59,812 nucleotides of DNA, taken from positions 1 through 59,812 of the forward strand of contig PXBH01000023.1 of the NCBI GenBank assembly GCA_003565555.1, in the 5' to 3' direction. The position numbers and the translations under genes were made by a program. Source of the DNA: Cryomorphaceae bacterium. Its GTDB lineage: Bacteria; Bacteroidota; Bacteroidia; Flavobacteriales_D; Cryomorphaceae. The notes below the pieces were generated by a model that saw only the letters and a list, made by a program, of their open reading frames with translations, was not told the origin of the DNA and did no database searches. Shown here in pieces: positions 6,440-19,341 of the stretch; position 1 is the first letter of the stretch, and each line of letters opens with the position of its first letter.

Positions 6440-7831
6440 TTATAAAGTTCGAACAGCATTGTAAAGAACCGCCGCCGAACCGAATCCTGCGTACATGTTA
6501 TTACCGACCATTACATAGGGCAAAGTTCTCCTGTTACCTATCAGCCTGTCGGCACCCGAGGCAGCCGTATGCATTTTTTCTCTGTTCGGTTCACGTTCTC
6601 CCCCGCCTTCGTAAGTCATGTAGTCGTGTGCAATGTCGAGTTCTTCAAGTTCCCGGTGTAAGCGACGGGTTTTACCGCAGTTTTCGCGTCCGTACACTGT
6701 GATCTCCGAGCCCGCTAATCCGGAAATAATTTCGTCCTTCATACTTTCGGGAGTAATAATAGAAAACATAAATACCCAGTAGGCCTCAGCATTTTCGGTA
6801 CCGGCATCTGAATCCCCCTTCACCGCAGCGGCAACAGCCGCAACAGTGATGCTGTTGGCAGTAATTCGACGGCAGGCGGGAGGATCAGACAACCACTCCG
6901 AGAGGGCATCCTCAAAATCAAAAGAAGACTTTTCATAGATATAGTGTGCCATGCGCAAACCGTCTTCGCTCACCCATGTCCGCTTAAGCTTCCGATCATC
7001 ACCACGACCCACTTCCTCACCGTTCTCAGCCAATATTTTAGCCCTGTTTCGCGCAACTTCCTCGAGCGCATCATTCCAATTAAGTTCATATCGGGCCGGG
7101 CCTTGGCTTCCCGCTTCCCCGTCACAACCCTGACCTTTCCTGCGCACCTCATTCAGTATGTCAAGTACGCCCCCCTTATCGAGCTCGAGGCATGTCAGAT
7201 CATCCTTATTGTTTTCAGGGACTGACGCTATGGCACGGGGTGTTTTTTGATCGATCTCACGGGTGGCCTTTCCGAGTTTCATGGTCCAATAGGGCGCCGC
7301 GGTACCGTGGCTGTTTTCGACTTCTTCTCCCGTGCGCACTGCAAGGCCCACATGGGTGGTCTGCGGCTGCATCATATTTGCGCAATGGCCGGGACTGTCC
7401 ATCCAAGACAGAATCACTTCTATATCGGAGGTTTGACCTCTGGCAATATTTTCGCGAATATCTGTAAAGCTGTCTGTAATATCCGCAACCCGACTGAAAG
7501 GACTTTTATTGTCAGGACTTCTGTGCGCAAAATAACCGTTGACAATCATATCCCTCACATGAAGATCGGCAGCTTTCGCAAGATCTTCTGACCAAACCAA
7601 GGCATCCGCCGGGGGGTAATAGGTCTCGCCGCAGTTACAGCCTTCACTGCGTATTTCGTTGATCATATGAATGACCTCTTCGATGTCTTGCAGCACTTCC
7701 TGAGCCCTTGCGACAAAGGGAATCGAGAAAAAAAGTAAGAGTGCGGTTATTGAAAAATTTGAAACCCTGAACTTCACCGAATCTCCGAAACAGTCGGCAA
7801 AGGAGACTCTGTATGTGAAAAAACTTCGCAT
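6440..7831 (-). CDS. exported protein with two CAP (SCP/PR1) domains and a C-terminal glutaredoxin-like domain
   Basis: The start is taken at the ATG at 7831 (MRSFFTYRVSF, 463 residues); a GTG at 7777 would leave a cleaner signal peptide ending FVARAQ. The open frame upstream to 8140 has no protein-like character. Domain order: signal/hydrophobic segment (about 27-44), CAP domain 1 (about 45-190; DMIVNGYFAHRSPD, then MDSPGHCANMM), a diverged CAP-like domain 2 (about 205-365; WNDALEEVARNRAKILAENGEE, lacking the His motifs), then a glutaredoxin-like fold (about 375-463; ITVYGRENCGKT, later TLPYVMVGNN with the cis-Pro). The CGKT site keeps only the first Cys of a CxxC. CAP domains are often lipid- or peptide-binding, and the function here is unknown. 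It is divergent from the TonB receptor gene. Confidence 0.8.
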   Translation of the reverse strand: MRSFFTYRVSFADCFGDSVKFRVSNFSITALLLFFSIPFVARAQEVLQDIEEVIHMINEIRSEGCNCGETYYPPADALVWSEDLAKAADLHVRDMIVNGYFAHRSPDNKSPFSRVADITDSFTDIRENIARGQTSDIEVILSWMDSPGHCANMMQPQTTHVGLAVRTGEEVENSHGTAAPYWTMKLGKATREIDQKTPRAIASVPENNKDDLTCLELDKGGVLDILNEVRRKGQGCDGEAGSQGPARYELNWNDALEEVARNRAKILAENGEEVGRGDDRKLKRTWVSEDGLRMAHYIYEKSSFDFEDALSEWLSDPPACRRITANSITVAAVAAAVKGDSDAGTENAEAYWVFMFSIITPESMKDEIISGLAGSEITVYGRENCGKTRRLHRELEELDIAHDYMTYEGGGEREPNREKMHTAASGADRLIGNRRTLPYVMVGNNMYAGFGSAAVLYNAVRTL

Positions 7832-12624: not shown

Positions 12625-14187
12625 TCAGCCTTCGAATTTAACTTTGTACACAAAGGGGCGAATTTTTTGGATTTGGGTCGTTTTGTCCGCATAGAAAAGC
12701 CTGTTTCGCACGGGCAGCTTTAAGTCACTGATTGAGGCATCATTCAGGCCTTCAATCCATGCGGTAATTTTTTCGGCGGGAGTGAATTGATAAAAACCGC
12801 TTTCATCCTCAGCTTCGGTGAGGAGCATACCCGCGATCTGTCCGTGATTGCCGATCACGGGTGCACCGAAAGTGGCCGCTGATAATTTCACCCTGAAGTT
12901 GCCCTCACCTGCCGCATTCACACTGCCGTCGGAATAGGCCAGAAAATCAGCGGGAAAACCCAGTGAGAAAACAGCCTCACCGATTTCCGCTCCTCCGGTT
13001 GCAAACCTGTACGGAACGGTCGGGTCGATACCGTCTGTGTCCTCAATTTTCAATAGTGCAAGGTCGGCATCAGGGTCCGCCTTGACGACCCGAGCGCGAT
13101 AAGCGATGTCGCCGTCTTCGGTTTCCAACAGCACCGCAGTGCGGTCGCCCAGAGGTTTGGCGGCAGTCAAGGCATAGCCCGGTGCGGGAGCGAAAGCAGA
13201 TATGCGCATAGGCACGACCTTTTCGGCAGCCGCTGCTGCGGCAGCGAGGCTGTCAGCTACAAAAGCTTCGCGCTCGGCTTCTTGCCGGGCCTGCAATTCA
13301 TGGTGCTTGTGCACCGCCTCGGAAACGTTGAATGCCGTGAGCGCGGATATGGCCCCGGCAGCTATGAGTGCGAGTCCTGCGATTCCTGCTGTTTTCATCA
13401 GTATCTTTTTTGTGGTATTCGGTCCGTCCGCACTTTCCGTTAATACGTCATCGGTGGCCGTGAGCTTGTCCTCCATCTCTTTAAATGCCTCGATGCGCTC
13501 GGCACGTACCACGTGGTTGCGCACCATGGCAGCTACTCTGGACACCATCGTAAGGCAGACTTTCTCTTCTTCGGCTACAGCAGAAGTCTCCTCCATTCCG
13601 TCGAGCACGTAACGCACAAAACGGGCAAAAACCTCATCTGAAAGTTCGAATTCTTTGCCTTCTGTAAATTTGATCAACTTGCGGAAGCACTGCACGAGTT
13701 TTGCGAAAGCACGGTCTTCATCCGTCAGACCCAATCGAGGCGCCACATCAGAGATACTGCACTTTCGGCCCACGCATTCCAAAACGAGCGTGCGGCCGGG
13801 CTCTCCGATTTCCGCAAGCTTTTCTGCAGTCTTGGCGCTGCGCTTATTGATGAAGTCAATTTCGTGAAAAGCGTCTTCCATCTCAAAATATTCGCGGCGA
13901 TGCTTGACATAATCAAGGTCAACGCGGCGCTTTTCCAATTTATGCAGCCAGAGCTTTCGCGAAAAAGAATAGATTACCGCCTCTGCGCGCTCAGACACAG
14001 CCATACCCCTGAGCTCAATGAGCTGCATGTAGTAGGTGAAGGCCCTGACATAGGTATCGCGCGCCTCCGACATGGAGCCTTTGTTTTCCAAAACGAATTG
14101 AAAAGTGCTTTTGTACAAGGCTTTGAATTGCCCCTCCACTTTCGTCAAATCGTCATGCTCAAAACTGTAAAGTCTTTCGGGTTTCAT
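12625..14187 (-). CDS. sigma-70-like region / membrane helix / inactive trypsin-like domain fusion protein
   Basis: The start is placed at the ATG at 14187 (MKPERLYSF, 520 residues). Residues about 20-85 resemble sigma region 2 of Bacteroidota ECF factors (NKGSMSEARDTYVRAF, then IYSFSRKLWLHKLEKRR). Residues about 118-168 resemble region 4 (EIGEPGRTLVLECVGRK, then ISDVAPRLGL). A helical stretch (FARFVRYVLDGMEE) recalls anti-sigma N-termini. One membrane helix follows (about 265-290) and then a trypsin/HtrA-like domain (about 335-490). There the His motif reads LTAAKPL (Lys for His), the Asp motif DADLALLKI is kept, and the GNSGGP site reads ATFGAP (Phe for Ser), so protease activity should be absent. 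I infer a membrane-tethered sigma-like regulator with a periplasmic sensor domain. It faces an S41 protease gene across a shared promoter region. Confidence 0.7.
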   Translation of the reverse strand: MKPERLYSFEHDDLTKVEGQFKALYKSTFQFVLENKGSMSEARDTYVRAFTYYMQLIELRGMAVSERAEAVIYSFSRKLWLHKLEKRRVDLDYVKHRREYFEMEDAFHEIDFINKRSAKTAEKLAEIGEPGRTLVLECVGRKCSISDVAPRLGLTDEDRAFAKLVQCFRKLIKFTEGKEFELSDEVFARFVRYVLDGMEETSAVAEEEKVCLTMVSRVAAMVRNHVVRAERIEAFKEMEDKLTATDDVLTESADGPNTTKKILMKTAGIAGLALIAAGAISALTAFNVSEAVHKHHELQARQEAEREAFVADSLAAAAAAAEKVVPMRISAFAPAPGYALTAAKPLGDRTAVLLETEDGDIAYRARVVKADPDADLALLKIEDTDGIDPTVPYRFATGGAEIGEAVFSLGFPADFLAYSDGSVNAAGEGNFRVKLSAATFGAPVIGNHGQIAGMLLTEAEDESGFYQFTPAEKITAWIEGLNDASISDLKLPVRNRLFYADKTTQIQKIRPFVYKVKFEG

Positions 14188-14446
14188 AGATTGCAGGCGA
14201 ACCTTGTTGCGTTTTCGCAGGAAAGCGGCTTGTGACCTTCCTCCCATCTGTGGTCCGGTTCACCGCCTTATACGTTCATTTATGTGCATTGTTTCAATAT
14301 CGCATCTCGGCCCGGATTTTGCTGAAGAGATTTAAACAATTTATGCTGCCGTGCGTAAAGATGACGCTTAACCTATATTAACGCAGCTACGCTAAAAGCA
14401 AACCGCCGGAAATGGCTAATTTTAGAATTCCTTGTTATCCTACCAC

Positions 14447-16051
14447 ATGAAATCTCTCCTCTTAACATTTGCGCTCCTCTGGAGTGCCTCCGTCTCTTTT
14501 GCACAAAATCCGCTGCTCGAAGCTGACTTCAGGCAGTCAGCGGAAAAATTTACCGCATTGCTTTATCACCTCGATCAGAGCTATGTGGACAGCGTAGATA
14601 CCGAAGAACTGGTGGAAAGTGCCATTGTAAAAGTTCTGGCCGAACTCGATCCGCACAGTGTTTACATCCCCGCCAAAGATGTTCTTAAGGCCAATGAAGG
14701 GCTGGAGGGCAACTTTGAGGGCATCGGCATACAATTCAATATATTGCGCGATACCATCACCGTCGTTTCACCCATTTCGGGCGGGCCGAGCGAAAAGCTC
14801 GGGATCATGGCCGGCGATAAAATTGTGTCGATCGAAGGGGAGAACGTAGCGGGTATCGGCATCACCAACAATGATGTGGCTGAAAAACTTCGCGGAGACA
14901 AGGGAACCAAGGTGAATATCGCCGTTCAGCGCCGAGGAGCAAGAGAACCCCTGGATTTCGAAATCACACGCGACAAGATTCCCATCTTCAGCCTTGATGC
15001 CGCTTACATGGCTTCTGATAAGGTGGGCTACATCAAGCTCAACCGTTTTGCCAAAACCACCATGCGTGAATTTCACGAAGCCGTAGCGAAATTGAAAAAA
15101 GAGGGAATGGAAGACCTGATCCTCGACCTTCAAGGCAACGGCGGCGGCCTGCTCGAAACCAGTATTAAGCTTGCCGATCAATTTTTGAAAAACAAAGAGC
15201 TCATTGTCTACACGGAAGGCCGCAACTATCCGCGGCGCGAAGCCAATGCGGGAGACACCGGAGATTTTCTCGAAGGCAGACTGGTCGTATTGATTGATGA
15301 CGGATCTGCTAGCGCCTCAGAAATTGTGGCGGGTGCGGTGCAAGACTGGGACCGCGGACTGGTCATCGGCCGGCGCAGTTTCGGAAAGGGCCTCGTGCAG
15401 CGCCCCGTGCAACTTCCCGACGGCTCTGTGGTGCGTCTGACTACCCAGAAATACTTCACGCCCAGCGGCCGATGCATTCAAAAACCCTACGATGAAGGCG
15501 TGCAAGCATATTACAGAGAAAAATTTGAGCGCTACGAAAAAGGAGAGCTTTGGTCTTTGGACAGCTTGTACATGCCCGATTCGCTGAAGTATTTCACCGA
15601 CAAGAAACGGGTCGTTTACGGAGGCGGCGGGATTATACCGGACATTTTCGTACCGGTGGATACTTCCTACAATGCCAAGCTGAACTCCGACCTCATCCGC
15701 CGCGGTGTGATGAACAGTTTCGCCATCACCTATGCCAACGCCAACCGAAAAAAACTGCTCCGCGCCTATCCGAACGTGAAAAGCTACAAGGCGGAATTCG
15801 ACATCGAACCCGTAATCGAAGAACTCAAAATATATGCCGCCAATGAGGAAGTAGAATGGGATGATGAGGGATATGAGAAAGCCAAAGTCATGATCGACGG
15901 AAGACTCAAAGCACTTATTGCAAGAAGCTTGTGGGACTACTCCGCATACTTCGAAGTATTCAATCCCTACTGGAAAACCTACCGAACCGCACTTGAGGTC
16001 TTGGAAAAAGACACCTACAGTACGTACAACCTTGCCAAAACAGAATTTTAA
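14447..16051 (+). CDS. C-terminal processing peptidase, S41 family (Ctp/Prc-like)
   Basis: The ATG at 14447 (MKSLLLTFALLW) gives 534 residues with a signal peptide ending near ASVSFAQ. Next come an N-terminal helical domain, a PDZ domain (about 85-165; GIGIQFNILRDTITVV, SGGPSEKLGIMAGD), and the S41 catalytic core with ILDLQGNGGGLLETS, the nucleophile in DDGSASASEIVAGA, and the Lys in RRSFGKGLVQRP. Ctp enzymes cleave C-terminal tails of envelope proteins in the periplasm; the substrate is unknown. It is transcribed away from the sigma/pseudo-protease gene, 259 bases apart. The TTG-started extension at 14432 is less likely because it would disturb the signal peptide. Confidence 0.92.
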   Translation: MKSLLLTFALLWSASVSFAQNPLLEADFRQSAEKFTALLYHLDQSYVDSVDTEELVESAIVKVLAELDPHSVYIPAKDVLKANEGLEGNFEGIGIQFNILRDTITVVSPISGGPSEKLGIMAGDKIVSIEGENVAGIGITNNDVAEKLRGDKGTKVNIAVQRRGAREPLDFEITRDKIPIFSLDAAYMASDKVGYIKLNRFAKTTMREFHEAVAKLKKEGMEDLILDLQGNGGGLLETSIKLADQFLKNKELIVYTEGRNYPRREANAGDTGDFLEGRLVVLIDDGSASASEIVAGAVQDWDRGLVIGRRSFGKGLVQRPVQLPDGSVVRLTTQKYFTPSGRCIQKPYDEGVQAYYREKFERYEKGELWSLDSLYMPDSLKYFTDKKRVVYGGGGIIPDIFVPVDTSYNAKLNSDLIRRGVMNSFAITYANANRKKLLRAYPNVKSYKAEFDIEPVIEELKIYAANEEVEWDDEGYEKAKVMIDGRLKALIARSLWDYSAYFEVFNPYWKTYRTALEVLEKDTYSTYNLAKTEF

Positions 16052-17133: not shown

Positions 17134-19341
17134 TCAGTTTTCAATCGGTGCCGGCTCCCTGTCTTTCAGGTACACCAACTCCATTTCATCAATCAGGTGC
17201 CCGGCTCCCGCAAATTTATCAATAATGAAAAGCACGTACTTGATGTCGACCATGATGTTGCGGCATATCTCCCCATTGAACATGATGTCGCTCATGGTGC
17301 TTTCCCAGGTTCTGTCAAAGTTCAGCCCTACAAGGTGGCCGCGTGCGTCGAGGGCCGGGCTGCCGGAATTTCCTCCCGTCGTGTGGTTTGACCCGAGGAA
17401 GCATACCCGCATCTCCCCTTCCGTGGCGTAAGGACCGTAGTCGCGTTCGCGCTGAAGTTCCAGTAATTTCTCCGGCACATCGAAGTCGCGGTGATCGGGG
17501 ATATACTTTTCGGCAATTCCGGCCAGCGTGGTGTAGGGCATGTACTTCATCCCGTCTCTCGGCCGCGAACCCTCCATGCTCCCGAAGGTGATGCGCAGGG
17601 TGCTGTTGGCATCCGGCCAGTAGTTCACTTCCGGAAAAAGGGTCATGCGGGCCGCCACATATTCGCGCATCAGCGCATCTTTTCGATCGTTGAAATAGGC
17701 ATACCCCGGCGCCACTGCGCTTCGGTAGTTCTGCATGAGCCCCGCACCGGCCAGATATGCGGGATCTTTCAAAACGGTTTTAGCCATTTTCTTGTTCGGC
17801 TTGTCGAGGAGCTTCATGAGTGCTTCCTTATCGGCAAAAACGGTTTGACCGAAGAAAGCATCCGCCGCCCGCTTGCCGTCCTCTCCGTATTTTGAGGCAT
17901 ATTCTCGGAGTACCTGCGGCACCAACATTTCGGGACAGCCCTCTGTAAACACCGCAAACTGCGCCGCCATGATCTGGCGGTCTGTAATGCGGTCGTAATT
18001 TTTAAAATGCTTTTCCGCGGCGGTTTTGAGCTTTTCAACCTTCTCGGAAAGGAGACCGGCATCGTCGAGGCTGTCGCGAAACTCCGCAACCTGAGCGAAC
18101 TGCTCCGCAAAACGAAGGATTTCGGGTCCGTAGAAGTAAAACTCAATCAGATAATCGCGGGCGAGGACATACGGAGAAAACTCCGCGTAGAGTTCGCCGA
18201 GACGGGCGGGAATCTCCGGATCGATATCGGGGTTGTCGGCGGCCGCCTCTCTGAATTTTTCTTCGAATTCGGTTTTTTGTCCCAAGACATCATAGCGCTG
18301 TAGGCCCATGGTTTGCCCGATCCATTTTTTGTGCGCATTGGCAATTCTCGACTGCTTGGCCGCGTATTTGATCCGCAGTTCATCACTCGAACCCATGGCG
18401 CGGTCAATGACTCCGAGGCTTGCCTCCCGCATCGCTTTTCGCGCGGGGTTGGCCTGTTCCAGGACGTAGGCTACGGCATCGCTCGTGAGGTACTGCTCGG
18501 TGACCCCGGGAAATCCGAACACCATGGTGTAATCGCCCGGATCGAGGCCGTCCATATTGATGGGCAGGCTGTGCTTGGGGGTGTAGGGCACATTGGCCGG
18601 GCTGTAATCCGCAGGCTTGTTGTCGGCATCGGCGTAAATACGGAAGAGGGCAAAATCGCCGGTGTGCCGCGGCCATTCCCAGTTGTCCGTATCACCGCCA
18701 AACTTCCCGATGGCCGAGGGCGGTGCCCCCACCAGACGCACATCGCGAAAGATTTCTTTCACGACCATGTAATACGAATTTCCGTAGAAGAAAGGATTGA
18801 TCTCCGCCTCGTAACCGTTGTCTCGGGTGGCTGCTTCGATCAGCGTAGAGGCCATGGCGCGCAGCGCAGCTTGACGCTCTGCACCTTCGAGTTCTCCCGC
18901 GGCCTCCTTCATGGCATCGGTCACGTCCTCGATCCGCACCACAAAACTTGCCGTAAGGCCCTCATTGGGGAATTCATCCGTCATTTCCTGCGCCCAAAAG
19001 CCCTCCTTCAGGTAGTCGTTTTCCACACTTGAGTGCGATTGAATTTGGCTGTACCCGCAATGGTGATTAGTGAGGATGAGCCCCTTTCGGGAAATCACCT
19101 CTGCCGTGCAGCCGCCGCCGAAGTGGACAATGGCGTCTTTCAGGCTGCTTTGGTTAATGCTGTAAATGTCTTCTGCCGAAAGTTCGAGTCCCGCCGCCTG
19201 CATATCTCCGATCACGAGTTTCTGCAGCGTGCTCGGAATCCACATGCCCTCGTGGGCAGCGGCGGGACGAGGGCTTGCGAAGAAAACAATCAGGGTGAGC
19301 AGGGCTGTCGGGGCAAAGTGTGAAGTGAAATTCCGATTCAT
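17134..19341 (-). CDS. S46 family dipeptidyl peptidase, DPP11-like by specificity residue
   Basis: The 735-residue protein has a signal peptide ending at PRPAAA and the S46 N-terminus HEGMWIPSTLQKL. The chymotrypsin-fold triad is intact: His in LILTNHHCGYS (residues 93-94), Asp in GGDTDNWEWPRHTGDF, and Ser in TTGGNSGSPAL. The residue 18 positions after the catalytic Ser is Arg (in NFDRTWE). In characterised S46 enzymes Arg here marks DPP11 (cleavage after Asp or Glu), while Gly marks DPP7. It should release N-terminal dipeptides from peptides in the periplasm. It sits between a J-domain membrane protein gene and phhB on the same strand. The acidic specificity is an inference from one residue. 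Confidence 0.92.
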   Translation of the reverse strand: MNRNFTSHFAPTALLTLIVFFASPRPAAAHEGMWIPSTLQKLVIGDMQAAGLELSAEDIYSINQSSLKDAIVHFGGGCTAEVISRKGLILTNHHCGYSQIQSHSSVENDYLKEGFWAQEMTDEFPNEGLTASFVVRIEDVTDAMKEAAGELEGAERQAALRAMASTLIEAATRDNGYEAEINPFFYGNSYYMVVKEIFRDVRLVGAPPSAIGKFGGDTDNWEWPRHTGDFALFRIYADADNKPADYSPANVPYTPKHSLPINMDGLDPGDYTMVFGFPGVTEQYLTSDAVAYVLEQANPARKAMREASLGVIDRAMGSSDELRIKYAAKQSRIANAHKKWIGQTMGLQRYDVLGQKTEFEEKFREAAADNPDIDPEIPARLGELYAEFSPYVLARDYLIEFYFYGPEILRFAEQFAQVAEFRDSLDDAGLLSEKVEKLKTAAEKHFKNYDRITDRQIMAAQFAVFTEGCPEMLVPQVLREYASKYGEDGKRAADAFFGQTVFADKEALMKLLDKPNKKMAKTVLKDPAYLAGAGLMQNYRSAVAPGYAYFNDRKDALMREYVAARMTLFPEVNYWPDANSTLRITFGSMEGSRPRDGMKYMPYTTLAGIAEKYIPDHRDFDVPEKLLELQRERDYGPYATEGEMRVCFLGSNHTTGGNSGSPALDARGHLVGLNFDRTWESTMSDIMFNGEICRNIMVDIKYVLFIIDKFAGAGHLIDEMELVYLKDREPAPIEN

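Follow-up and report, generated by a model that had tools for sequence, protein, structure and literature searches.

We find that a 520-residue protein of a marine bacterium, encoded on the minus strand of the window (the whole stretch of DNA analysed, 59,812 nucleotides), is almost certainly a fusion of an ECF sigma-fold domain, an anti-sigma-like segment, a transmembrane helix and an S1C domain in one chain, which originated from a two-gene operon of Bacteroidia. It is a version, with a pseudo-protease and a degraded sigma, of already known single-chain sigma/anti-sigma proteins. Tentatively, and with somewhat less than an even chance of being right, we propose that an ECF sigma/anti-sigma-protease switch was fused, disarmed at both ends and taken into a type IX secretion/envelope ECF regulon as a one-chain sensor acting via sigma mimicry or RNA polymerase contact.

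Table 1. Positions of the fused gene, its parts and surroundings in the window, and of example two-gene operons at their own loci
Feature	Position	Strand	Remarks
Single-chain sigma/anti-sigma/TM/pseudo-S1C protein	12625..14187	-	520 aa + stop
Sigma region 2, residues 20-88	13924..14130	-	scaffold retained (W80, R77, YSFSR); core-contact Gln replaced by V47, promoter-wedge Asn by K78
Sigma2-sigma4 linker, residues 89-118	13834..13923	-	VDxxFVKHRREFFEMEDAFHEI, unusually conserved in f1
Sigma region 4, residues 119-176	13660..13833	-	recognition helix ~155-168; invariant NAKNQKYK residues and most positive charge gone
Anti-sigma-like helical segment, residues 184-245	13453..13638	-	collinear with the N-terminus of the split partner gene
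Single transmembrane helix, ~residues 265-287	13327..13395	-	from hydropathy; basic residues on the N-side; model of low confidence here
Pseudo-S1C (HtrA/DegS-type) domain, residues 329-487	12727..13203	-	His replaced by K344, Ser by F440; Asp375 retained; without PDZ
C-terminal tail RNxLxYxxxxxQIxKxxPFIxEV	12628..12726	-	conserved; also in split partners
Candidate promoter of the fused gene	14271..14296	-	same class as that of gldK
Direct repeat GTTAA-N5-GTTAA, divergent intergenic region	14368..14382	-	probable element of the S41 gene
S41 C-terminal processing peptidase with PDZ (CtpB/Prc kind)	14432..16051	+	divergent; candidate protease partner
Split-operon examples	L070 7980-9724; L072 7456-9116; L069 5205-6923		intact catalytic residues

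Architecture of the fused protein

The reading frame runs from the ATG at 14187 to the last codon at 12628, with its stop at 12625-12627. An in-frame ATG further upstream (14247) gives an alternative of 540 residues; in the alignment, homologues begin at the 14187 position. A sequence-only reading had proposed sigma-like and anti-sigma-like segments, a single membrane helix and a dead S1C fold in this one chain, and alignments, a Trypsin_2 match, hydropathy and structure models together bear this out (Table 1). AlphaFold2, run with a 39-row alignment, predicts two confident parts, an all-helical cytoplasmic one (residues 10-240, mostly pLDDT >90) and a beta-rich S1C part (residues 329-520), with a poorly predicted membrane segment between them. 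From gene order and topology we infer that the helical segment at residues 184-245 is the anti-sigma; no anti-sigma Pfam family was found for it, and its NCBIfam match is weak (E 0.02). The details of the topology of the fused chain are likewise predicted ones. Neither domain searches nor the structure model revealed a response-regulator receiver domain in the fused protein.

The N-terminal part has the ECF sigma fold by descent, since the window protein matches stand-alone ECF sigmas of relatives (E 4e-16 and 2e-15) that are themselves TIGR02937 (sigma70-ECF) at 1e-19 to 1e-21. The comparison with sigma-70 profiles that had been suggested as a check thus failed when made directly, as the window protein alone gives no sigma-domain match in Pfam or NCBIfam, and succeeded by way of the relatives; we do not take the missing direct match as a refutation because homology is reached through them. 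Profile-profile comparison of the sigma part with the split sigmas described below gives 99.6% over 161-168 columns (E 8.5e-25 at 168 columns), also with sequences of the window's family (f1) only. TIGR02937 is matched directly by three of the ten fused members, and an f2 fused protein, which has more sigma character than those of f1, matches TIGR02952 at 6e-6. A PDB profile search with f1 sequences only returned no match.

Modelled separately, residues 1-250 pack as one unit (pTM 0.79). Foldseek returned no match for this cytoplasmic model at E<0.001. In the VIA ranking nearly all of its top matches are sigma factors, at modest Z (up to 7.7); the best is BldN (Z 7.7 over 131 residues), and others are sigmaH, sigmaK, sigmaL and AlgU. 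Sigma4 alone compares with known structures at an r.m.s.d. of 2.2 over 64 residues (VIA). The first-ranked match is the anti-sigma-bound BldN-RsbN arrangement (8.4 Å), whereas RNA polymerase-bound sigmas superpose poorly, mostly at 16-22 Å. We regard the VIA fold match as supporting, not decisive, and the model may show a closed, occluded form.

At the other end of the chain, Trypsin_2 over residues 336-454 (E 4.7e-9) is the sole Pfam match of the window protein; among PDB sequences, DegS and further HtrA proteins match residues ~335-457. The predicted domain has the two-barrel trypsin-like fold and compares with Deg/HtrA chains at VIA Z of ~17-19. Alignment with catalytically intact relatives places K344, D375 and F440 at the triad positions, so the replacement of His by Lys and of Ser by Phe, with the Asp kept, had been read correctly, and there is no His-Asp-Ser triad. 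Of the split partners, 14/14 still have the catalytic His, which 10/10 fused proteins lack. The Ser is absent in eight fused proteins as far as their sequence reaches (that of G001 ends before the site) and retained in two (G003 and G008). His, Asp and Ser are also intact in further class-level split members beyond the 14.

Two-gene relatives and the origin of the fusion

A first homologue search, with the window protein as query, covered 100 relatives. One-chain homologues were present in all seven other genomes of f1, which contains the named isolate Cryomorpha ignava (Cryomorphaceae, Flavobacteriales), and thus in 8/8 genomes with the window, as well as in 2/2 genomes of a second family, f2. 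Outside these families the query gave two separate, adjoining matches: a 181-191-residue ECF sigma, followed almost at once by a 370-396-residue protein that is Trypsin_2 at ~1e-22. The concatenated pair aligns with the fused protein from end to end, C-terminal tail included, and profile-profile comparison of the S1C part gives 99.8%. Wider searches took in 399 order-level and 395 class-level genomes, ~800 in all. Among these the fusion is confined to f1 (8/8) and f2 (2/2), and the split version with adjacent genes, which had been predicted for related genomes, occurs across Bacteroidia, in at least ~60 of the 395 genomes of the class; 68 of them, the window's own included, have a strong match to the split system or to part of it. 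Such a system amounts to an anti-sigma that has its own DegS-like protease as part of the chain. In one survey of Bacteroidota, only 6% of ECFs had a recognised class I anti-sigma gene as neighbour (PMC7406223).

The split operon (L070, L072 and L069 in Table 1) has the same parts in the same order, tail included, and represents the direct ancestor type. It differs from the fused gene in consisting of two genes, in its intact His, Asp and Ser, in an invariant recognition helix and in a promoter of its own, GGGTGACCTT..GGATA. In G011 both split genes lie in the same frame, with one stop and one further codon between them. G455 (f61), an additional candidate for a fusion by frame length, proved to be two ORFs. 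The ten fused sequences group as a single clade in the tree of sigma domains (support 99/99); the S1C tree, with weak support (61/20) and long branches, does not contradict it. A single fusion event before f1 and f2 separated is therefore the simplest reading. The series from two genes through the one-stop gap of G011 to one chain marks a route from a trans-acting anti-sigma to a single membrane protein, with the protease inactivated within the fused lineage.

The frame is open at full length in six f1 and two f2 genomes, including an 839-kb contig and the isolate genome; the G002 copy is interrupted by the contig end and the G001 copy is frameshifted near its end. G001 is a MAG of the same genus in which the adjoining S41 gene is broken too (L002/L060), suggesting assembly errors. 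The fused gene is not a product of chance, because it occurs in 8/8 f1 genomes with pN far below pS. In f1 genomes there is, in addition, a stand-alone sister sigma, after which a large protein is encoded (L086 5258-8272, L087 5204-7089); the large protein of L086 has a TonB_C domain, and it and the sister sigma may form another sigma/anti-sigma pair with a different sensor.

Shifted constraint, promoters and neighbouring genes

The fused sigmas have lost residues that the split sigmas keep. The core-contact Gln of region 2.2, invariant in the 14 split sigmas, is V, I or A in f1 and H in f2, and the Asn of region 2.3 that wedges the -10 element, kept in 13/14 split sigmas, is K, C or I in f1 and V in f2; both are thus lost in 10/10 fused proteins. 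In Mycobacterium tuberculosis sigmaH the corresponding N88 wedges the -10 element open, N88A impairs transcription, and alanine substitutions in most sigma4 DNA contacts lower it (PMC6411747). The NAKNQKYK recognition helix for the -35 element is near-invariant in split sigmas of many families, with an identity of 0.88 and a net charge of +5 to +7, compared with 0.42 and 0 to +2 in the f1 fused proteins; those of f2 retain part of it. A small number of further ECF sigmas encoded in the same genome lack either the Gln or the Asn, and two stand-alone sister sigmas lack both with the recognition helix kept.

Constraint has moved elsewhere in the chain. As a rule the linker between sigma2 and sigma4 is where ECF sigmas are least conserved (PMC6411747), but in f1 it is the most conserved part (identity 0.60-0.63 vs 0.22 in split sigmas), and regions 2.3-2.4 of sigma2 are also among the most conserved. 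Conservation in f1 is at its low end in the S1C domain (0.29 compared with 0.48 in split proteins) and in the tail. Since dS is saturated in most pairs, we used pN/pS instead of dN/dS: sigma2 has a pN of 0.07-0.12 and a pS of 0.6-0.8, and the S1C part of f1 has a pN of ~0.37. Judged from these substitution patterns, the cytoplasmic module is under strong selection, and because of this the gene is no pseudogene.

Upstream of the split operons we found GGGT[GT]ACCTT-N-GGATA (or GGTATA/GCGTATA in place of GGATA), commonly with a second copy facing the opposite way. By all appearances this is an autoregulatory ECF promoter, and none of the f1 fused genes has it. In L072, for example, GGGTGACCTTTT-N-GGATATA lies at ~7390-7456, often as a facing pair in such operons, and the divergent gene of L072 codes for a VWA/YfbK-domain protein. 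The f1 fused genes share TGAAAC-N16/17-CGTA instead, and 0/200 shuffles reach the observed sharing. The relaxed form G[AT]AAC-N16/17-CGT[AT], with a chance rate of 0.006 per upstream region, is found in the 150 nt before the start of all f1 fused genes (8/8) and of none of the split sigma operons (0/14); gldK has it in the same interval in 20/23 genomes of the order (L181-L205). We take gldK, named here from its sequence, to encode a core lipoprotein of type IX secretion.

The gldK promoter class is present also where the fusion is absent (e.g. G025, G013, G009 and G020), and because of this another sigma presumably reads it there; for the same reason we dropped TGAAAC-N16-CGTA as the fused sigma's own autoregulatory promoter as the default. 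Genome-wide, exact motif matches are not above the control count, so the case for regulon membership is made by gldK and a small number of orthologue pairs; several matches precede genes for envelope or secreted proteins that are orthologues in different genomes. At the f2 operon starts G[AT]AAC-N16/17-CGT[AT] was not found. There the fused gene comes third; both genes before it encode proteins that carry type IX secretion tails (L067 9595-14282, L068 3396-7966), and the first of these proteins has a trypsin-like domain. An ECF promoter class common to gldK and the fused sensor in Bacteroidota is a testable one. In Porphyromonas gingivalis, genes of type IX secretion are a target of the ECF sigma SigP, although rSigP did not bind the porK region (PMC4800418); SigP may resemble the reader of the gldK promoter by analogy only.

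The S41 peptidase gene and then a DUF1573 gene are divergent from the fused gene in 8/8 f1 genomes; in f2 the same S41 gene points away from what appears to be an operon containing the fused gene, the two lying a few genes apart. The S41-DUF1573 pair is common in the order and lies far from the sigma operon in those split genomes in which it was placed (e.g. G099, G038). RseP/M50 is present in the window's genome. The S41 neighbour and RseP are noteworthy because Prc (S41) and RseP are the proteases that process IutY, itself a single-chain sigma/anti-sigma protein (PMC8999054, PMC5411451). The GTTAA-N5-GTTAA repeat lies upstream of the S41 gene in 8/8 f1 genomes and one f2 genome, and its presence before S41 in f2 speaks against an operator of the fused gene; its spacing resembles OmpR/PhoB-type response-regulator boxes. 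Several peptidase genes cluster in this region, among them a 735-residue ORF (window 17134-19341, minus strand) that reads like an S46-type peptidase.

Possible function and relation to known systems

The account we favour, at not far short of an even chance, is a membrane-anchored sensor in an envelope/type IX secretion regulon. The periplasmic pseudo-S1C domain would bind an envelope or exported-protein ligand, and the sigma-shaped cytoplasmic module would act by protein contact without starting transcription from promoters of its own, its output being contact with RNA polymerase or sigma mimicry on another ECF sigma/anti-sigma pair. The protein would regulate the envelope/type IX secretion regulon of which it is itself a member, and its module could be set free, as in IutY, through cuts made by the divergently encoded S41 peptidase and by RseP. 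If the module is indeed a pseudo-sigma, sigma mimicry of the PhyR type would have a membrane-tethered counterpart in this protein. Several points tell against this account: the conservation of sigma2 regions 2.3-2.4 and of the linker could mean that an RNA polymerase or -10 function is kept, other ECF sigmas have also lost the Gln or Asn, genome-wide matches of the promoter motif do not exceed the control count, and the f2 proteins have more sigma character and no motif at their operon starts.

The sequence-only reading had offered a membrane-tethered transcription factor freed by regulated proteolysis. We have demoted this role to a rival because the DNA-reading features are lost and the promoter type lies upstream of gldK in genomes devoid of the fusion. 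It would make the protein an active, IutY-like ECF sigma that senses ligand through the pseudo-S1C domain, is cut by S41 and RseP and then initiates transcription, with a -35 specificity shifted from GGGTGACC to TGAAAC. We consider it doubtful, if a serious contender: the IutY precedent with Prc and RseP (PMC8999054, PMC5411451), an S41 gene that adjoins the fused gene in 8/8 f1 genomes, is near it in f2 and lies away from the split operon where both were placed, the RseP/M50 of the genome, the strong purifying selection on sigma2 and linker and the CGTATA -10 element of the split G011 promoter, which resembles that of the fused genes, all argue for it, but the recognition helix of f1 varies and carries almost no charge, both the wedge Asn and the core Gln have gone, and another sigma presumably reads the TGAAAC/CGTA type.

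The sigma-shaped domain could instead be no more than a plug for its own anti-sigma segment, in an envelope protein that serves as a structural part or binds a ligand and does not act on transcription. The packed cytoplasmic model and its resemblance to anti-sigma-bound BldN-RsbN, with RNA polymerase-bound sigmas superposing poorly, are consistent with this, but we think it unlikely: the periplasmic part is the least conserved and sigma2 and linker are the most conserved, which argues for a cytoplasmic job. That the gene is a decaying pseudogene fusion or an assembly artefact is very improbable even though two functional sites look dead and the G001 copy is frameshifted (in a MAG whose S41 gene is broken as well), given the low pN of sigma2 relative to pS and the full-length frames of f1 and f2, isolate included, with one more f1 copy split only by a contig end.

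The sequence-only reading knew of no described system with this layout, but single-chain sigma/anti-sigma proteins freed by proteolysis had already been described in IutY (ECF243) of Pseudomonas putida and predicted for ECF48/52/53 (PMC8999054, PMC5411451). Like the fused protein, IutY runs from an N-terminal ECF sigma through an anti-sigma-like segment (a role assigned by prediction in our protein) and one transmembrane helix to a periplasmic sensor, and both have an S41 link, by processing in IutY and by gene neighbourhood here. Its periplasmic part, however, is a cell-surface-signalling anti-sigma domain and not a pseudo-S1C domain, and the degraded DNA-contact residues and the origin from a Bacteroidia two-gene operon set our protein apart. 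For a pseudo-protease sensor and a degraded sigma in one chain, we found no description in a literature search that covered few subscription papers and did not include the main ECF re-classification, in which the two-gene system may already have an ECF group number.

The DegS-RseA-sigmaE pathway, too, links an S1C fold with an ECF sigma and a membrane anti-sigma; in Escherichia coli these are three proteins and DegS is active with a PDZ domain, whereas here they form one inactive chain devoid of PDZ. PhyR is the precedent for sigma-factor mimicry, in Alphaproteobacteria (PMC4814048). Its sigma-like domain works by protein contact instead of promoter binding, as the module of our protein may, but PhyR is soluble and a response regulator: it has a receiver domain and lacks both a transmembrane helix and a protease fold. 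RsgI9 of Clostridium thermocellum is likewise a membrane anti-sigma with an S1C-like ectodomain as sensor; it belongs to a SigI/RsgI system, with a chain separate from any sigma, and is reported to bind polysaccharide and to self-cleave (PMC12203970).
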